DNA of 33,783 nucleotides from a virus. Both the position numbers and the translations under genes were made by a program. The notes beneath the pieces are model-generated. The model searched no databases and had not been told where the DNA came from. It saw only the letters and a program-made list of their open reading frames with translations. The stretch is taken from positions 1-33,783 of the IMG/VR virus record IMGVR_UViG_3300008116_000506. The stretch is one strand, 5' to 3'. Positions 1,374 to 20,920 of the stretch are shown here, piece by piece; position 1 is the stretch's first letter, and each line of letters starts with the position of its first letter.

Positions 1374-2495
1374 TCAAAAAGCCACCTCTTCACCCACAGG
1401 GGTTGTCTCCGATTCCGAAACAGGAGCCGGATCGATGGTCTCATCGACTTTCTTATAGAGTTCCATAAACGCATTCTTAGTATCCACATCAAAGCGGTTC
1501 AAGCACAGTTCAAGTGCCTTAACACGGTTCTGTCCAAAGATAGAATAAGCCTCGCAGATATGGACGAGACGGCGAGTGGAGATGATTTCGGACAAAGCAC
1601 CTTCATAGAAGGACTTACGAATAACATCAGCCCAAGTCACCAGTTTATCAACAAACTCTTTTGCTTCAATACCAGAAGCACCAAGAACATTGTTGAGGAT
1701 CTTAGTCTCGGTTTTCTGAGCAGGATATTCCTGTTCCATAGTAATAGAGAAACGCTCAAGGAACGCTTCGTTCATAACGTTGGTGCCGATAAAGCGACCA
1801 TCGTCTGAACCCTTACCCTTGGTGTTTGCTGTAGCAACCACATTGAAACCATTTTCAGGATGAACAAGGCGGTTAATCTTTTTGAGAAACACAGACTTGC
1901 CTTCTAGCACAGGCTGAAGACACATCAGTTTATTAGAACCAAGGTCAACTTCGTCTAGAAGAAGAACAGCACCACGGGTCATAGCCGTGATAACAGGACC
2001 ATCCTGCCAAACAGTCTGACCATCGACAAGTCGGAAACCACCGATAAGGTCATCTTCGTCTGTTTCAATAGTGATATTGACACGGACACATTCACGCTTT
2101 TCCTGAGCGCAAACCTGCTCGACCATCATAGTCTTACCGTTGCCAGAAAGACCGGTGATATACGCAGGATAAAACTTGCGAGACTTGATAATGGCACGAA
2201 CGTCTGTAAAGTTACCGAACGGCACATAACCAGAAGCCTTTTCAGGCACCAGTGAAATTTCTGGATTGGTGCTAGTAGAAGGAGCAGACATAGAAACAGT
2301 AGGAGCCATAGCAATCATATTTTCGGTAACAGGGACAATAGACTGGATGTTAGCAGTCTTACGAGGAGTTTTGACTTTTGCAACAGGTGCGGGAGTCGCT
2401 GCCATAGCAACGGTAGCACCATGCTCAGGAAGAGCATAAACACCACGACCAATCTGACGATTAGCATCTTTACGAATCCAGGTAGGAAAAGCCAT
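1374..2495 (-). CDS. MoxR/CobS-like AAA+ ATPase
   Basis: This is a 373-residue AAA+ ATPase of the MoxR type, often labelled CobS-like in phages. After a linker rich in Pro, Ala and Ser comes Walker A (TGLSGNGKT, about residue 115), then Walker B (AVLLLDEVD), then NVVATANTKGKG (sensor 1) and NEAFLERF (arginine finger region). MoxR ATPases remodel a partner that carries a VWA domain, and that partner is encoded just upstream (2572-4782). The cobalamin label should not be taken as function, as no cobalt chelatase genes are present. The ATG at 2495 has a weak ribosome binding site. Sequence typical of this family's N-terminus (EYGAIREITRSQVKSICEKY) continues upstream in frame to 2571 without ATG, GTG or TTG, so the true start may be a rare codon or may have been lost. 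Confidence 0.85.
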   Translation of the reverse strand: MAFPTWIRKDANRQIGRGVYALPEHGATVAMAATPAPVAKVKTPRKTANIQSIVPVTENMIAMAPTVSMSAPSTSTNPEISLVPEKASGYVPFGNFTDVRAIIKSRKFYPAYITGLSGNGKTMMVEQVCAQEKRECVRVNITIETDEDDLIGGFRLVDGQTVWQDGPVITAMTRGAVLLLDEVDLGSNKLMCLQPVLEGKSVFLKKINRLVHPENGFNVVATANTKGKGSDDGRFIGTNVMNEAFLERFSITMEQEYPAQKTETKILNNVLGASGIEAKEFVDKLVTWADVIRKSFYEGALSEIISTRRLVHICEAYSIFGQNRVKALELCLNRFDVDTKNAFMELYKKVDETIDPAPVSESETTPVGEEVAF

Positions 2496-2571
2496 ATCAT
2501 ACTTTTCACAAATAGACTTAACCTGGGAACGAGTAATTTCACGAATAGCACCATACTCAAAACGAACCTTA

Positions 2572-4782
2572 TCAAGGAACTGCTACCTTCTTAGCCTGAC
2601 CAGTTACATGGTCAATAAAGTTCCGGAGAAGAACACGATTTACAGACTTCTTAGCGGCAAACTTGGAGAATGCCTTAGCCATTTGTTTCGTGGTCTTGCT
2701 GTTGTCGATAGCAAGTTCCTCATCGACTTCCTTAAGAGCAGCAGCATTGACCACATAATAGTCATCATAACCAGCACTCTTGACAGGATAGAACTTGTTA
2801 TCTTTCCAGAACTTTTGGATCTTCTGACGATATTCATAAGTCGAACCATAGAAGAAACGACTAATGAGTCTCGTAATCGTATCCGATGACAGAAAGAAAC
2901 CGATAAGATTACAACCAGTCTTTTCTTTCAGAAGACGGAGTAAAACGTTGGTGTCATCATTATGACCATACGGATTCAGTCTATAAGTTTTACCAGTCGC
3001 CTTGTCCGTGTAAAGGTATTCTTTTCTGCGAGTGATAGAAGGTTCTTCATTCTTTACACCATCGAACCCATTAGCCTCACCATCAGTGAGAACAATGCAG
3101 TTAACGATTTCGAGTTTATACTTTGCACGAAAATCGTTAATGATCTTAGGCGCAAGAATAAGAGCCTCGTTCAGTGGCGTGCCACCCATACCATCGACAT
3201 AAAGATGATTACCCTTACCAAGGAACCACAAGAATGTCATTGCCTCATTCATTTCTGAAATCGTCATTTTCGAGGAAAGAAACTGACGAAGGCAGATATG
3301 GTTGAGATGCAGAACATTAGTGGTGTTACCATACTCGAATGGCGGTGCATTCACATGGTCCTTGAAAGCATACACCTCAAAAGGCACCTGGATTTGCTTA
3401 CAAAACATAACCAGGGTGAACAACTGCTTTAGCGTATGCTGAAGACCGAACTGCATTGAACCAGACCAGTCAAGAAACATAACGAAGCCGTGGTTCTTGC
3501 CTTCAGGAATGACAGACAAACGACGGAAGATATCATCGTTATACTTGTAAGAATGGAGTTTGTTGGTATCAATCATACCAGTCTTAGCGATAGAGATACG
3601 AGAATAAATCTCGGCACTCTTGCGCTGTTCAAACTCTTTCACAAGAAACGAAATGGTATCTTTTTCTTTCGAACGCCACTCCATCATCTCACGGCGATTG
3701 TCTTCAAACGCTTTTTGCGTCAAAGGCTTATGCCAACTTGAATTAGTATTACCGATACAGGAACGCCAATCATCAAGGACTCTCTTATAGTCGTGAACAC
3801 AATTTGTCCAATTGATTTCAGGCATGTTCATATAGACATATTGAACACTGGAATCACGAACAAGTTCCTCACGCTTCTGTTCCCAGATGCTATCGGTGAT
3901 AGACTCGGGAGCCTTACCCTTGACAACACCATTAGAACCAGCACCCTTAGAAGGATTACCCGAACCAGTAGGTATTATATCACCCTGTCCCTGTTCGGCA
4001 TCACTCTTACCATTACCTTCTTCATCACCTTCGTCGGCATCATCGCCTTCGCCAGCATCGTTACCGTTATCCCAACGGTCAGCATGGTTGTTGAAATCAT
4101 ATTCGTCTCCTTCTTCGCCTTCACCAGGCTCACCAAGGCCAATTTGAAGGTCATTTTCCATTTGGTCTTCAATCTGGCCTTTGCAGAAACGATAGATTTC
4201 TTCGGTCAGAGTTACGGCTTCCGCAAAAGTCTCCACATCTTCAACACGCTTCAAAAGCGCCTTTTCTTCGGGAGTAAAATCAATCTTGTAATTGACGTTA
4301 CCACCCTTGAAATAGATGTTAAGACGGTCGATAAAGTTCATGCCATTGATATCACGGCCACTGGTGCCGAAGAAATCACGCTCGACAAGTTCTTTATAAC
4401 CAAGGAGATAGTTTTTGCGAAGACCAGGATAACGGCGCTTCTGCCGCTTATCGATACGGGCATCTTCAATAACATTCAAGAAGCCGCTAACGGTCTTGGT
4501 CAAACGAGCATCCAGTTCATCACCGAACACACGGCTGGCAATACCTTCGTATGCCTTCTTATAGTCTTCCGCATGGGGAGTATCGATGGCATGAGCCGTT
4601 TCATGACCAATAAGCAAATGCTCAAGGTCAACAGAGATATCTTTCCACACAGGAAGCATAAGAACACGGTTCTTAAGATCAAACATGGCAGTCTTAATAC
4701 CAGACTGATGCTGGACCGTAATATTTTCAGTGGCCAACAGTTTAGCCAGCATAGAATTGGAAGAGTTGGAGATAACAGTCAT
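2572..4782 (-). CDS. Zinc metallopeptidase-VWA domain protein, MoxR partner
   Basis: This 736-residue protein has an N-terminal HExxH motif (HETAH, residues 60-64) and a likely third zinc ligand (Glu106 in NVIEDARID), as in gluzincin-type peptidases. Residues about 217-290 form a very acidic, Gly-rich linker. The C-terminal VWA domain has a complete MIDAS metal site: DWSGS at 438-442, Thr535 in GGTPL and Asp567 in LTDGE. Peptidase-like/VWA proteins paired with MoxR ATPases are known in bacteria, and phage versions are often called CobT-like. The neighbour at 1374-2495 is the expected ATPase. The gene follows a near-consensus sigma70 promoter (4807-4835) with AAAGGA before the ATG, so early expression is likely. 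The substrate is unknown; head or tail maturation, or attack on a host protein, are both possible. Confidence 0.85.
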   Translation of the reverse strand: MTVISNSSNSMLAKLLATENITVQHQSGIKTAMFDLKNRVLMLPVWKDISVDLEHLLIGHETAHAIDTPHAEDYKKAYEGIASRVFGDELDARLTKTVSGFLNVIEDARIDKRQKRRYPGLRKNYLLGYKELVERDFFGTSGRDINGMNFIDRLNIYFKGGNVNYKIDFTPEEKALLKRVEDVETFAEAVTLTEEIYRFCKGQIEDQMENDLQIGLGEPGEGEEGDEYDFNNHADRWDNGNDAGEGDDADEGDEEGNGKSDAEQGQGDIIPTGSGNPSKGAGSNGVVKGKAPESITDSIWEQKREELVRDSSVQYVYMNMPEINWTNCVHDYKRVLDDWRSCIGNTNSSWHKPLTQKAFEDNRREMMEWRSKEKDTISFLVKEFEQRKSAEIYSRISIAKTGMIDTNKLHSYKYNDDIFRRLSVIPEGKNHGFVMFLDWSGSMQFGLQHTLKQLFTLVMFCKQIQVPFEVYAFKDHVNAPPFEYGNTTNVLHLNHICLRQFLSSKMTISEMNEAMTFLWFLGKGNHLYVDGMGGTPLNEALILAPKIINDFRAKYKLEIVNCIVLTDGEANGFDGVKNEEPSITRRKEYLYTDKATGKTYRLNPYGHNDDTNVLLRLLKEKTGCNLIGFFLSSDTITRLISRFFYGSTYEYRQKIQKFWKDNKFYPVKSAGYDDYYVVNAAALKEVDEELAIDNSKTTKQMAKAFSKFAAKKSVNRVLLRNFIDHVTGQAKKVAVP

Positions 4783-4806: not shown

Positions 4807-4835
4807 ATCATAGCAAATTGCCCGTCACTTGTCAA
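4807..4835 (-). promoter_or_regulatory. Sigma70 promoter for the VWA/MoxR pair
   Basis: On the minus strand, TTGACA (4830-4835) and TATGAT (4807-4812) are separated by exactly 17 nt. The start of transcription would fall about 20 nt before the ATG at 4782. This suggests expression by unmodified host polymerase. Confidence 0.85.
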
Positions 4836-5704: not shown

Positions 5705-6843
5705 TTCGAAACCTCATTGTATGGTTTTAATACATTTTCATATATTGACTTGGCCACTTCAGCCATCATCTTTGGTGCAACCATTCGTCCAATACGTTCT
5801 GCTTGTTGATCGAATGTTCCTGTTAGTTCATAGTCTTCTGGCAAAGACATAAGACGTTTTAATTCTTTGATTGTTAGTTTACGATTTTCAGCATAATGAA
5901 ACACTCCTGATAGACCTTTCTTTTGTCCTTGCTGTGTAAGCGTAGGAGAAGGCATAGTAGGACAAGGTCTAATCATATTGAAACAAGATGCTTTGGGATT
6001 CCAACTACGAAACTCTGGATCGCTAGGTTTCATATGTCTTGTTGGTCTGAATGGAATAGGATCAAGAAACTTTTTCTGAAATGATCCTTCATAGAAATCT
6101 CTAAGTTCTTTCACCTGCTCAGAGTCATTATCTATATTTTCAATAGCATCTTCCATTGATATCTGATACGGATATTCTTTAGGAAAGACACCAGATAGAT
6201 TTATAAACGGCAGTCCGATTGCGTCTGCTACATCTTCACGAACACAAATAAAGATTGTTCTTTCTCTTGCCTGAGGCACTCCATAGTCAGCAGCATTCAT
6301 TACTTTATATGTCACATAGTATCCAATGTTCTCAAACTCTTTAACAAACTCGTTAAGTTTCTTGATTGCTTCACCAAAGGTAATGCCCTTGACGTTCTCA
6401 GCAACAATGACCTTAGGTTGAATATCTTTTGCAATGCGAATAAACTCTAGAAACAAATCTTCGATGTTCTCTACAGTCTTTCCATCAGAATACGACTTTG
6501 TTTTGTCCCAACCCTTTTCACGTTTACCTGCAACAGAGAAAGCGGAACATGGAGGCGAACCATCAAGAATGTCTAACTCTCCAGAGTTGATCTTTGCCAT
6601 CTTTAGAAAGTCTGCGCCTTTGTATTTCTTGATATCATCAACAAGCACAGGAGTGTCTGGATAGTTCTTTTTATAAGATGCAATTGCTTCTTCAACAAAC
6701 TCATTGATCAAAAGTATCTTACCGCCTGCTAGACGATAACCTGTTGAACTGCCACCACCGCCGGCAAAACAACTAACGACGGTAAACTTATTTTGTGCAG
6801 ATGCCTTCTTAACATCTTCTACAGTGTATGGTTCATATTTCAA
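5701..6843 (-). CDS. C5-cytosine DNA methyltransferase with Arg in motif X, probable carboxymethyltransferase
   Basis: This 380-residue Dcm-family enzyme has all main motifs in order: motif I FAGGGGSSTG (26-35), motif IV GSPPCS with catalytic Cys99, motif VI AENV (148-151), motif VIII QARERT (191-196), a variable target-recognition region (about 205-315), motif IX RKLTIKELKRLMSLPEDY, and motif X ERIGRMVAP. Motif X normally has Gly-Asn; here it is Gly-Arg (Arg353, codon 5785-5787). In M.MpeI I recall that changing this Asn (N374) to a basic residue allows carboxy-SAM use. With a CmoA-like gene overlapping its 3' end by 4 nt, transfer of a carboxymethyl rather than a methyl group to cytosine is likely. 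The start is TTG with GGGAG upstream, inside the end of the PP-loop gene. The target sequence is unknown. Confidence 0.9.
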   Translation of the reverse strand: MKYEPYTVEDVKKASAQNKFTVVSCFAGGGGSSTGYRLAGGKILLINEFVEEAIASYKKNYPDTPVLVDDIKKYKGADFLKMAKINSGELDILDGSPPCSAFSVAGKREKGWDKTKSYSDGKTVENIEDLFLEFIRIAKDIQPKVIVAENVKGITFGEAIKKLNEFVKEFENIGYYVTYKVMNAADYGVPQARERTIFICVREDVADAIGLPFINLSGVFPKEYPYQISMEDAIENIDNDSEQVKELRDFYEGSFQKKFLDPIPFRPTRHMKPSDPEFRSWNPKASCFNMIRPCPTMPSPTLTQQGQKKGLSGVFHYAENRKLTIKELKRLMSLPEDYELTGTFDQQAERIGRMVAPKMMAEVAKSIYENVLKPYNEVSK

Positions 6844-7639
6844 ATAATGTATCTCCCACGTTGCTCCAATCTCTTACAAGATCGATGACACGAGTTCTAT
6901 TATAGAGATTAATCTCAGGATTGTCAAGAAGTTTCTCAAATTTGTCAGGAACCTTTGCTGCCAGTTGTAAATTCTCGTGGCGTCTTACCTTTGTTCTTTT
7001 AAACTCAGGAAACGCATTTACAACCTTAACTTTTTGGATTGGTCTATTCATTTCATACCAATCAAATTGCATCATATAATCTTCCACACGTTTATCAAAG
7101 TATGGAGCAATAAACTTTATGCCATACTCTTTGCATAACTGTTCCTGTTGTCTTACACCGACTGGATTAGGCGCACTAAAGTATGACATGCGAAACTCAT
7201 CAAACTTTTCTTTAGGTTCTTTGAAATGCATACATGCTCTTTTAGAAACACCATACCAACCATCAGCACCCCATCCAGTCAGTAACTCTTTCTGTTTAAT
7301 GTTAGGATAGACATAGAGAAATGGCCATGTGCATTCTAACTGTGTTTTCTTGCGACAGTTAAAATGTTTTACCAAATGTTTGAAGTCATTTGCTATATTG
7401 TCAGTAGGAACATCAATAACAGTTATGTTCCATCCAAACTCTTTTGCAGTATTGATAGCGTTTTGTGCATCTTTAGATACAACACCATCAACATACATTG
7501 TATAACAGTGTAATGTTTTACCTAACCTATGAGCGGCAAAGGCGACAGAGATTGAATCTATGCCGCCCGATAATAATACTGCTAGGTCTTGTTCATTGGA
7601 CTGTTCTTCAACAATCTCCATTAAAATTTGATCTATCAT
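6833..7639 (-). CDS. Asparagine-synthetase-like PP-loop amidoligase without glutaminase domain
   Basis: This 268-residue protein has the ATP pyrophosphatase loop SGGIDS (24-29) near its start and the second asparagine-synthetase signature TGWGADGWYG (121-130), followed by IAPYFDKRVEDYM, which matches the AsnB region VPFLDKRFLDVAM. It matches the synthetase domain of AsnB and lacks the N-terminal glutaminase domain. Such enzymes adenylate a carboxylate and join it to ammonia or another amine. Its gene overlaps the cytosine methyltransferase gene by 11 nt, and AGGA lies upstream of the ATG. In this setting the carboxylate could be a 5-carboxymethyl group on DNA cytosine (inference). Another PP-loop role, such as nucleobase or tRNA modification, is possible. 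Confidence 0.8.
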   Translation of the reverse strand: MIDQILMEIVEEQSNEQDLAVLLSGGIDSISVAFAAHRLGKTLHCYTMYVDGVVSKDAQNAINTAKEFGWNITVIDVPTDNIANDFKHLVKHFNCRKKTQLECTWPFLYVYPNIKQKELLTGWGADGWYGVSKRACMHFKEPKEKFDEFRMSYFSAPNPVGVRQQEQLCKEYGIKFIAPYFDKRVEDYMMQFDWYEMNRPIQKVKVVNAFPEFKRTKVRRHENLQLAAKVPDKFEKLLDNPEINLYNRTRVIDLVRDWSNVGDTLFEI

Positions 7640-10470: not shown

Positions 10471-10641
10471 TCAAAACTCTCTTGTTGGTCTCTTTCCTTC
10501 TAGCAGATCCTTGATTTCAGAACCCGACAGAGTTTCAAATTCTAGCAGGCCATGTGCCAGTGTGTCAAGTTCTTTTCTGTATTCTGTAAGGATTTTCTTT
10601 GCAGTCTGGTATCCGTCCTCAACCAATCTCTTGATTTCTAC
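10471..10641 (-). pseudogene. ftsH: Out-of-frame 3' end of ftsH
   Basis: In a different frame from the main ftsH reading frame, 56 residues read as a clear FtsH C-terminus ([17 protein letters not shown], then LLEFETLSGSEIKDLLEGK). The frame runs without error to a TGA just before gp46. Residues that normally join it to the protease core (about 35-40 in E. coli FtsH) are absent. So the gene has lost an internal stretch whose length is not a multiple of three. It is not clear whether this part is translated. Confidence 0.8.
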
Positions 10642-12181
10642 CAAGAATAGGAGAGAAACCTAACTGTGTGACCATTGCTCTTGCTAGTCTAGTAGCCTGC
10701 TGAATATCGCCAGAAGCACCAGATGTAATGTTCTTTTCACCAAACACTAGTTCCTCTGCTACACGACCACCCATGGCCATTGCTAGTTGAGCAACCATCT
10801 CTTCATATGACTGTGAGATTTGATCACGTTCTGGTAGAGACTGAACCATACCAAGGGCACGACCACGAGGAATGATTGTTGCCTTGTGAATAGGAACAGA
10901 CCCAGGCATCTTTAGTGACACGAGAGCATGTCCACCTTCATGATAGGCAGTCATCTTCTTTTCAGCATCGGTCATCAATAGTGTTCTATGCTCAGCACCC
11001 ATTAGGATCTTGTCACGAGCATCTTCAAACTCTTGTGAGGTAACAATACGCTTTGAACGACGAGCGGCCAATAGTGCTGCCTCATTGACAAGATTAGCAA
11101 GGTCAGCACCAGAGAAACCAGGTGTTCCTCTTGATACAACCTTTAGATCAACATCAGGACCAATCGGAACTTTGCGGCAGTGAACTTTCAAAATCTTTTC
11201 ACGACCAATAAAGTCTGGATTAGGAACCTGAATCTGTCTATCAAAACGACCAGGACGAGTTAGTGCTTTGTCTAGAACATCGACACGATTGGTAGCAGCA
11301 ATAACAATAACACCTTGATTGTCATTGAAACCATCCATCTCAACAAGCATGGCATTCAATGTCTGGTCACGTTCATCGTTACCACTCATACCATTAGCAC
11401 GGGAACGGCCAACAGCATCGATTTCGTCAATGAAGATAATGCAAGGAGCATTCTTCTTTGCTTGTTCAAACATATCACGGACACGACTTGCACCGACGCC
11501 CACGAACATTTCAACAAAGTCTGAACCAGAAATGCTAAAGAACGGTACACCTGCTTCACCAGCAACCGCTCTTGCTAGTAATGTCTTACCTGTGCCAGGA
11601 GGACCAACAAGTAGAACACCCTTTGGAATCTTACCACCAAGTCTTTCAAACTTTTGCGGATCTTGTAGAAACTCTACAACTTCCTGTAAGTCTTCTTTTG
11701 CTTGATCCACACCAGCAACATCTTCAAATGTCTTTGTTCCGTTTGCTTCTGTTAGTAGTTTTGCCTTTGACTTACCAAAGGACATTGGACCACCCATACC
11801 GGAGCCTTGACGGCGTGATAGAAAGATCCAAAGACCAAAGAAGAATACAACTGGAAGTAGATTTAGAAACACATTCATCCAGAAGGACGACTCGTTACTA
11901 TCTGACCTTACTGTAATGTGAACTTTGTGTTCCTCTAACTTTGGCATTAGATTTGTTAGAGATGCTACATGGGTGACGAATGTTCTATTATCTGTCTGAT
12001 AATGTCCACTCAGTTCATTACCACTGATAGTAACATCATGAATGTTATTGCGTTCGACTTGCGTCATAAAGTCTGTGTAGGAGATTTCATTCATGGTGTT
12101 GCGGCCTCTTGATTCCATCATGAAAGCAAAAAGAATAGCACCAATCAAAAGAAATGCTAACCAAGGTATAAGTTTTTTCAT
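10619..12181 (-). CDS. ftsH: FtsH-like membrane AAA protease, C-terminally truncated
   Basis: The 520-residue product has two membrane segments (about 4-22 and 104-121), Walker A GPPGTGKT (193-200), Walker [10 protein letters not shown] (247-255), the second region of homology around [20 protein letters not shown], the zinc motif HEGGH (414-418) and the third zinc ligand Asp492 (SGASGD). It is strongly similar to bacterial FtsH, which degrades membrane and regulatory proteins. The frame is lost after LGFSP (about 511), so the helical end of the protease domain is missing from this product and is found out of frame downstream (10471-10641). It may be inactive or partly active. A complete FtsH could act on host factors or on lysis timing; this is inference. 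It lies between gp47 and gp46, 9 nt from gp47. Confidence 0.9.
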
Positions 12182-15190: not shown

Positions 15191-16499
15191 TCATTCCTTC
15201 ATTGAGATTTTGTAGATTTTGAACTTGAACTGTTCTTCACTATAGGTCTTAAGTCTTTCAAAGAAATGTTTGAGGGTAAAGTTTTCTCTGGCTTTCCACT
15301 TAAAGTCGTCGGCAATGTCATAGAGGGTGGCGGATTTCTTTGTGTCACTAACCCTAAGACCTCTACCGATTGATTGTAAGTTACGAATCTTGGACTTGGA
15401 AGGAGATGCAAAGACCACATTATCGAGGGCCACGATGTTAGTACCAGTGCTAAGAACACCAACGGACCCAACAATAATAGCATTGGGCTCTTTTTCGACA
15501 ATTCTTCGGATCTCTTCTCTTGATTCAACGTCAGTTCCTCCATGAATAAAAAACACCTTTCTATCTTTTGCTCGCTTATTTAGCATGTCGTATAAAATCT
15601 GACCGTGAGACTCTACATAGTTAAAGAGTAGTAAGGTATTTCCTTCAAGAGACAGAGCAAGATTGACTATAAATTTATTCCTTGCAGGATTTGCAACAAT
15701 GTATTTAATTTCATCTTGATAACTTGCAGATTTCATATACTGACATTCTTCCTCACTATACTTTAGCAATAGGCATTTGATTGTCAGGTCTGCTAACTGC
15801 TTCTTTGCCATAAGTTCAGCAGACGTAGTGGCCTTATATACTTGACCGAACAATCCCATCAACTGCCATTCATGTGACTTAGCACCAGATAATGTTCCTG
15901 TTACACCTAAACGATACTCCGCTTTGGTGCATTTAGATACAATATCAGTTAGTGCCTTTGCTTGTGCTTGATGCACCTCGTCGAAAGTCTGAAAACATTT
16001 GTTCAACAAGAGCGGATCTAGGAACGATTAAGAGTCCTCGTTTTCCTTGCTTGAGGAGGTAGTTGCATACAAGATATAGCAGCAAAGACTTGCCAGAGCC
16101 AGTGGGAGATAATACAATCCTTCTCCTAGATCGAATAGCATGAACGAATGCATCCAACTGATAGTCTCGGGGATAATGTTTTGGATTAAGTGCATCAACA
16201 AATTCTTTTGCCTCTTCTATTGAAAATGATGTATCAAGGTCTTCATCTGCATATTCATAGGTATAACCTCTGTCAGTAATCCATTGTGTGACCTGTGGTG
16301 CAAGACCTCGATAGATTACACGAGTTGCAGGATTGAATAGTCGTAGATAACCATCCCAGAGTTTCTGCTTGTAAGAAGGAACAAACTGAAACCCTGGTGG
16401 ACGAAACGAGAATGCATCTCTAAGTTCCCATGCAATACTTTCATCGCATTGGACTTTAAGATATGTTTCGTCGTGATTATATAAGATCAAATGGTTCAT
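15191..16499 (-). pseudogene. uvsW: uvsW-like helicase gene broken by an internal deletion and frameshift
   Basis: Two overlapping frames encode the two ends of UvsW, a superfamily 2 helicase that unwinds branched DNA and R-loops. The N-terminal frame (15945-16499) gives 184 residues, with Walker A SPTGSGKS and IVPRSALVEQMFSDF, and then turns to noise. The C-terminal frame (15191-16009) begins usefully at FDEVHQAQAK (the DExH motif), followed by VTGTLSG and the helicase C domain through QSIGRGLR. Comparison with T4 UvsW (503 aa) shows roughly 50 residues missing between MFSDF and DEVH, with a change of frame at the join. A complete helicase is not made without a frameshift. It could be a real deletion or an assembly error. 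The start shares one base with the uvsY stop. Confidence 0.88.
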
Positions 16500-20272: not shown

Positions 20273-20920
20273 TCAAAGTTTTGAAATATAGTTTTCAAAA
20301 ATCTTCAAGGCAACGTCTTCAATATCATGTCGAGATGCTTCACGAATTAGTTTCTTTGCTCTTTCGTTATGCATCTCTTTCCATTTACCATTTTCAAATA
20401 TCCACTCTTTACCTTCCATGATGCCTTGCACAAAAGCGTCTGGCGCACTTGGATCTGCTACAATGTCTGCCGCTGTAGCCAACTTAAAGTCGTCTTGTAC
20501 CTGCTGGTAACCATTATGTGGACGAAGAGACCCTACGCCTCTTGTAGACACACCAAGACTTGCACCGCCGTCTAGTAGACTCTTAACTATCTTTCCGTTA
20601 GGAGTATCTAATATCTTTGCTTTACCAATAAAGTTTGTTCTATCAGGATATAACTTAGTAATCATATGTGAAACACGATCTAGGTTAATTTGAGGATTCT
20701 CTGGATGACCTAGTTCACCAAATGCTCTGTTCTTTTGAACGTATTCACGGTTGTATCTGTCTGCTTCTTTAGAAAGCACGTTCATTGGATAGACACGACC
20801 GTTTCTGTTCTGCTTTTCGGCCTGCATAAAAATACCTTCAATAAAGTAATTTTTAGTGCCGTCTTTAGCAGTTTCTACAAGATACTGAACGTTTTGAATT
20901 TCTTCTCTAATAAGTTTCAT
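20273..20920 (-). CDS. 21: gp21-like prohead protease
   Basis: The 215-residue protein matches T4 gp21 (212) in YFIEGIFMQAEKQNRNGRVYP, GELGHPENP (catalytic His72), GVSTRGVGSL (catalytic Ser125) and DFKLATAADIVADPSAPDA, which holds a likely third catalytic Asp. It is a herpesvirus-type serine protease that cleaves head proteins after (I/L)-x-E. The substrates gp22 and gp23 are the next genes. GGAGG is 12 nt before the ATG, rather far; a GATAAATA octamer lies in the gap. Confidence 0.93.
   Translation of the reverse strand: MKLIREEIQNVQYLVETAKDGTKNYFIEGIFMQAEKQNRNGRVYPMNVLSKEADRYNREYVQKNRAFGELGHPENPQINLDRVSHMITKLYPDRTNFIGKAKILDTPNGKIVKSLLDGGASLGVSTRGVGSLRPHNGYQQVQDDFKLATAADIVADPSAPDAFVQGIMEGKEWIFENGKWKEMHNERAKKLIREASRHDIEDVALKIFENYISKL

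Follow-up and report, generated by a model that had tools for sequence, protein, structure and literature searches.

Which function should be assigned to a gene pair that is labelled as a cobalamin enzyme in one part of the viral literature and as a peptidase in another? The pair considered here lies at positions 1374–4782 of the IMG/VR virus record IMGVR_UViG_3300008116_000506, a 33.8-kb fragment of a T4-like myovirus that was analysed over its positions 1 to 33,783 (33,783 nucleotides; hereafter the window). It consists of a CobS/MoxR-type AAA+ ATPase gene and a gene for a 736-aa zincin-linker-VWA protein, and both genes, their parts and their promoter are on the minus strand. A MoxR and metallopeptidase-VWA pair has been described in group 2.2 jumbo phages, with a proposed role in virion assembly (PMC7824862, 2021), whereas PMC8651126 favours a reading as cobaltochelatase CobST and calls the "peptidase" label a mistake. 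In T4-like cyanophages, cobS is a core gene (PMC3037559), and an ocean survey listed it as "cobalamin synthetase" and called its function in the infected host unknown (PMC9983427). With some reserve, we consider it probable that the pair is a two-part, ATP-driven protein-remodelling metalloprotease directed at a replication or takeover target, and not at cobalamin or the mature virion.

Metal sites of the zincin-linker-VWA protein

The large protein is encoded by an open reading frame (ORF) at 2572–4782, which is undamaged in the contig, was supported by the family alignment, and matched PHROG_459 "peptidase" (E 9.7e-188). Its N-terminal zincin-like domain (about residues 1–210; 4153–4782) carries the HExxH zinc motif HETAH (residues 60–64; 4591–4605) and the stretch N-V-I-E-D-A-R (residues 103–109; 4456–4476), which contains the putative third zinc ligand Glu106 and the conserved Asp107. 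An acidic disordered linker (residues about 208–290; 3913–4161), with 23 D/E among 83 residues and a predicted local distance difference test score (pLDDT) below 50 over residues 213–286, precedes the VWA domain (about residues 430–690; 2713–3495). The metal-ion-dependent adhesion site (MIDAS) of the latter is complete, with D-W-S-G-S at residues 438–442 (3457–3471), T535 (3178–3180), and D567 (3082–3084).

Conservation was assessed in 232 near-full-length T4-like homologues, collected from 80 IMG/VR loci, 12 genome-collection loci, and further scans in which syn9 and Pelagibacter-phage proteins were used as queries. The genome-collection matches resembled phage contigs within metagenome-assembled genomes and were not counted as cellular homologues; a DLP6 protein query against viral contigs gave no matches. 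Homologue identity went down to about 34% (the columns of the family alignment averaged 41% identity), and the zinc motif was invariant wherever it was readable (H60 and E61, 228/228 each; H64, 229/229). N103 was likewise unchanged in every readable row, as were E106, D107, and R109 (231/231 each). In the MIDAS, D438, S440, S442, and T535 were found in 232/232 and D567 in 231/231. Judged from this alignment, the conservation of the metal-site residues is far above chance. The sequence-only reading of this stretch had proposed an HExxH site and a complete MIDAS joined by an acidic linker, and the homologues bear this out.

When the 736-aa protein or its profile was searched against Pfam and against PDB sequences, only low-complexity acidic or chance matches were returned. 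A full-length structure model matched mostly VWA domains, including that of NorD in NorQD complexes, and the N-terminal domain was therefore modelled separately. The AlphaFold2 model of the N-terminal 213 residues (pLDDT 87.9, predicted TM-score 0.83) placed HETAH in a helix at 51–67 and Glu106 in a helix at 92–117, both with pLDDT of about 90–97. All of the first 12 PDB fold matches were zincins, namely projannalysin, proabylysin, and selecase (minigluzincins), IrrE/PprI, and ArdC, at E-values of 0.06–0.36 and probabilities of 0.44–1.00; such weak E-values count against a proteolytic reading of the domain. In BFVD, the best matches included viral proteins labelled VWA or CobT, those of haloarchaeal tailed viruses among them, and SprT and IrrE domains ranked lower. 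Motif, conservation of the third ligand, and fold thus support the prediction of a gluzincin-type zincin. We know of no minigluzincin, IrrE/PprI, or ArdC protein that is fused to a VWA domain and paired with a MoxR ATPase.

AAA+ partner and relation to CobT and CobS

The AAA+ gene spans 1374–2495 (373 aa from the first ATG) and matched Pfam AAA_5 (E 1.2e-18) and PHROG_249 "porphyrin biosynthesis" (E 1.4e-119). Its Walker A motif GLSGNGKT (2130–2153; G115, G118, G120, K121) and Walker B motif LLLDEVD (1944–1964; D181, E182) were conserved in at least 97% of 247 rows. As the sequence-only reading had it, the partner is next in line: of the 197 related loci with enough flank, 196 have an AAA+ homologue downstream in the same orientation. 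The locus therefore has the composition of a MoxR-VWA pair, an AAA_5/MoxR-type ATPase adjoining a VWA protein with a complete MIDAS.

Compared with relatives, the homologous AAA+ frame runs on upstream to about 2582, and its conserved N-terminal 29 residues have no recognised start in the window. Between 2495 and 2582, the window lacks about 120 nt that are found between both genes in the relatives L002–L006 and that hold a TTGACA-17-TATAAT promoter, a ribosome-binding site, and an ATG. Because these elements are missing, the true 5′ end of the AAA+ gene in the window is uncertain. The AAA+ N-terminus of relatives L002–L034 has a conserved segment (FLDKVRFEYGAIREITR..V..I.EKY...WP.WL..D..RR.GRGVYAL) that resembles a helix-turn-helix on visual inspection and matches no Pfam family; from its sequence, it is possibly a DNA- or partner-binding domain.

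A search against MoxR-associated metallopeptidases had been suggested as a check, and it led elsewhere than expected. DUF2201_N/VWA-like proteins also combine HExxH with a VWA-like domain, but DUF2201_N (PF13203) was rejected as the closest relative, since hhalign comparisons, with four sequences only, were not significant (probability 4–19%; 18.7% for the HExxH domain). The closest relatives were instead found in the CobT family, of which the window protein is, by profile homology, the phage branch. The hhalign comparison of T4-like with SSU5-type proteins covered 594 columns (E 6.7e-41) and that of SSU5-type with true CobT 591 columns (E 3.9e-50), while the direct comparison of the T4-like and CobT profiles gave E 2.5e-4 and a probability of 43%, all of these E-values being those of single comparisons of small alignments. 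In the SSU5–CobT alignment, HEVAH stands over DSVAL and E-D-V-F-I-E over E-Q-A-R-V-E, so that the E-D-x-x-I-E helix of the viral proteins corresponds to E-Q-A-R-V-E of CobT. Cobaltochelatase CobT/CobS (PF06213/TIGR01650) is thus likewise a gene pair of VWA-MIDAS and AAA+ proteins, homologous along the full length through the SSU5-type relatives. The window protein itself matched no Pfam family and so lies below the PF06213 cut-off; one of 43 relatives matched at E 0.14. The AAA+ protein matched a solved CobS chain (E 3.7e-26) and the CobS equivalog TIGR01650 (E 4.3e-28), the latter with 98.4 bits against a cut-off of 558.55 bits.

Among viral proteins labelled CobT, "porphyrin biosynthesis", or similar, HExxH was present in SSU5 (HEVAH), Rhizobium phages (HEVGH), ICP2 (HECYH), Gordonia (HEIGH), and Roseobacter CRP-810 (HEAGH), and the haloarchaeal HCTV-2 gp79 has HEMEH followed by NVLED (N-x-x-E-D). 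PMC8651126 applied the name CobT to proteins of two virus families, and HCTV-2 belongs to one of them, Saparoviridae. HECAH and the AAA+ gene are present in Pelagibacter phage Mosig. In contrast, the 31 PF06213 CobT proteins from Pseudomonadota genomes (L100–L129, L135) had a DNSGS MIDAS, and none had an intact HExxH where the zincin site would be; the lone HEPAH among them, at residue 32, is a chance match in an untrimmed reading frame. Two PF06213-matching proteins from bacterial genomes retain the motif (HECGH in L130, HEAAH in L131). Most viral members of the family thus have HExxH and cellular CobT lacks it, and CobT appears, on this sequence comparison, to be a degenerate zincin, a relative that lost its zinc site. 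On a quick tree, the HExxH label has to change twice, once for CobT and once for a clade of nickie, Acinetobacter, and ANB28 phages; the long branches of this tree make it uncertain where exactly CobT belongs, and the direction of change is read from the wide occurrence of HExxH. In that clade, the nickie protein (L140) has SEISK, that of an Acinetobacter plasmid (L143) QEVAK, and that of Stenotrophomonas ANB28 (L145) REVST at the motif, with the third-ligand Glu and the MIDAS kept; by their residues, the three are predicted to be natural catalytic-dead versions.

Promoter, gene neighbourhood, and condition of the contig

A sigma70-type promoter, TTGACA-N17-TATGAT, with an extended −10 element (TTTGC before the −10), was located at 4807–4835, upstream of the zincin-VWA gene. 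The near-consensus promoter of the sequence-only reading was confirmed at 11/12 positions: within the 110 nt upstream of this gene, 23 of the 24 closest relatives scored 11–12/12, as against 18 of 1,115 random 110-nt windows. The more distant cyanophages do not share this conservation, and only 10/199 scored 11 or more.

Neighbourhoods were counted in loci with at least 5.5 kb of flank. Upstream of the pair, gp46 was found in 138/145 loci and a structural gene of the type in the window in 1/145; gp45 was found downstream in 115/117. In independent lineages, genes for DNA polymerase, primase, helicase, or ligase adjoin the pair in DLP6, SSU5, Rhizobium, ICP2, and nickie, and the same replication-gene neighbourhood was seen in the E. 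coli PhiR41_1, Acinetobacter, and ANB28 lineages. The large protein was present in 463 phage records, chiefly of cyanomyoviruses.

Portal, terminase, gp46, and gp47 genes of the window were named by PHROG match, and those of sheath, tube, gp23, UvsW, and gp55 by position and homology. Between gp47 and gp46, at 10,619–12,181 (−), lies a separate system, the FtsH of the phage (AAA+ and M41 HEGGH; NCBIfam FtsH_fam, 755 bits), which, by comparison of C-termini, is frameshifted near its end in the window and intact (about 598 aa) in relatives. For the lineage, in which at least 17 related loci have FtsH upstream of the pair, the proposal that FtsH and the pair make two ATP-linked metalloprotease systems in one phage region thus holds; to this contig it does not strictly apply. 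UvsW (15,191–16,499) is divided over two ORFs that overlap and differ in frame; the start gap of the AAA+ gene, the FtsH frameshift, and the split UvsW suggest indel errors or decay of the contig. At 6833–7639, a PP-loop protein resembling asparagine synthase (Pfam Asn_synthase, E 5.9e-14) is encoded beside a DNA methyltransferase gene.

Weighing the readings of the pair

In the mechanism that we favour, the CobS/MoxR-type AAA+ ring (1374–2495) would dock on the VWA/MIDAS domain of its partner (2572–4782), and ATP hydrolysis would pull on or open a target protein brought in by that partner. The N-terminal gluzincin-like domain, with zinc presumably bound by HExxH and Glu106, would clip an exposed part of the target. 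The pair would be made from its own host-sigma70-type promoter within a replication/recombination gene block, presumably during takeover of the host or replication, and on account of that promoter and block we consider a protein of the host or the phage that is handled in takeover and genome replication the most likely target. The MoxR-VWA remodelling pairs NorQD, CbbQO, and RavA-ViaA likewise combine an AAA+ protein with a VWA protein and have a protein complex as their target; unlike in the window pair, an HExxH peptidase domain is not reported for them in the literature consulted.

Several observations weigh against this mechanism. The nickie/Acinetobacter/ANB28 clade lacks HExxH and keeps the VWA MIDAS and the AAA+ gene. 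No annotated replication genes stand beside the pairs of Gordonia (Damp) and CRP-810; hsp20, deformylase, or oxygenase genes also occur near the pair in Mosig and some cyanophages; and in T4-like phages, the position in the replication block may reflect a gene order passed down by descent. That HExxH is absent from CobT and from one clade of phages implies that a remodelling function can outlive catalysis and that proteolysis is not obligatory everywhere. The claim that the CobT/CobS label hides an ATP-driven protease accordingly stands in part: the label is misleading as a statement of function, and a protease is likely without being the sole reading.

The same pattern would be expected if the pair were a MoxR-VWA chaperone whose zincin domain only binds peptides or has a structural role, with catalysis dispensable. 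We regard this as unlikely, since the four zincin residues are perfectly conserved across the T4-like clade down to about 34% identity, and this would be difficult to account for if the domain neither bound metal nor acted as a catalyst. A similarly low probability is given to a virion assembly chaperone or processing peptidase, as was proposed for the jumbo phages. Their pair has the identical architecture, an N-terminal metallopeptidase fused to VWA with a MoxR ATPase as neighbour, and according to PMC7824862 the archaeal virus ATV forms its tail with the help of a MoxR-VWA pair. The present pair, however, is placed between gp46 and gp45 or beside DNA polymerase/primase genes and almost never near head or tail genes; this position, together with the lineage-conserved host-type promoter, speaks against virion assembly. 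T4-like phages moreover already own the gp21 prohead protease (window ORF 20,273–20,920, named by position only). The present pair also differs from that of the jumbo phages in its profile homology to CobT and in its range, which takes in many phages other than jumbo phages as well as phage-plasmids and archaeal viruses.

Least probable, and in our view quite improbable, is that viral CobST replaces the AAA+ motor of the cobaltochelatase, hijacks host CobN, and raises cobalamin output (PMC8651126; also the common reading of cobS as an auxiliary metabolic gene). It draws on the homology that links the wider viral family to true CobT over the full length and on the CobS-like AAA+ protein, and a CobN-family gene in the cyanobacterial control genome would make it possible in cyanophages. 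The CobN family PF02514 also takes in the magnesium chelatase ChlH. Against it stand the HExxH and third ligand that most viral proteins keep and true CobT does not, the T4-like protein falling outside the CobT Pfam family, and the far-missed CobS cut-off (98 against 559 bits). Some carriers, in addition, live in hosts without CobN or without B12 synthesis (SAR11): E. coli in the control list had no CobN (PF02514), and of the 970 plasmid records with SSU5-type relatives, 229 were from Escherichia. The absence of CobN is nevertheless the weaker argument against a chelatase, since the positive control partly failed: 16 of 69 PF06213-positive Pseudomonadota genomes also had no PF02514 match, a few of the 16 being prophage-like or divergent. 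Caulobacter vibrioides in the control list likewise had no CobN match. Cellular CobST may also have non-chelatase roles. For cyanophages, the chelatase idea is weakened but keeps a low probability.

The architecture has already been published for jumbo phages (PMC7824862), and the new part is the reinterpretation, of which the main value is to help in deciding between two conflicting readings in the literature and to suggest an origin of CobT from a metallopeptidase. We give an even chance to its widest form, in which viral "CobST" would be an ATP-driven metalloprotease of wide occurrence that acts when the genome is replicated or the host taken over, CobT would descend from a metallopeptidase-VWA protein of this kind whose catalytic site was lost, and the core cobS of cyanophages would not be a B12 gene. 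Ocean surveys count cobS among the auxiliary metabolic genes for B12, and if the pair is a protease machine, such metabolic inferences would need revising. An abundant marine virus function would then become testable, as the E. coli phage-plasmid PhiR41_1, with a K-12 host, carries a HEVAH relative, and CobT would gain an origin as a retired metallopeptidase.

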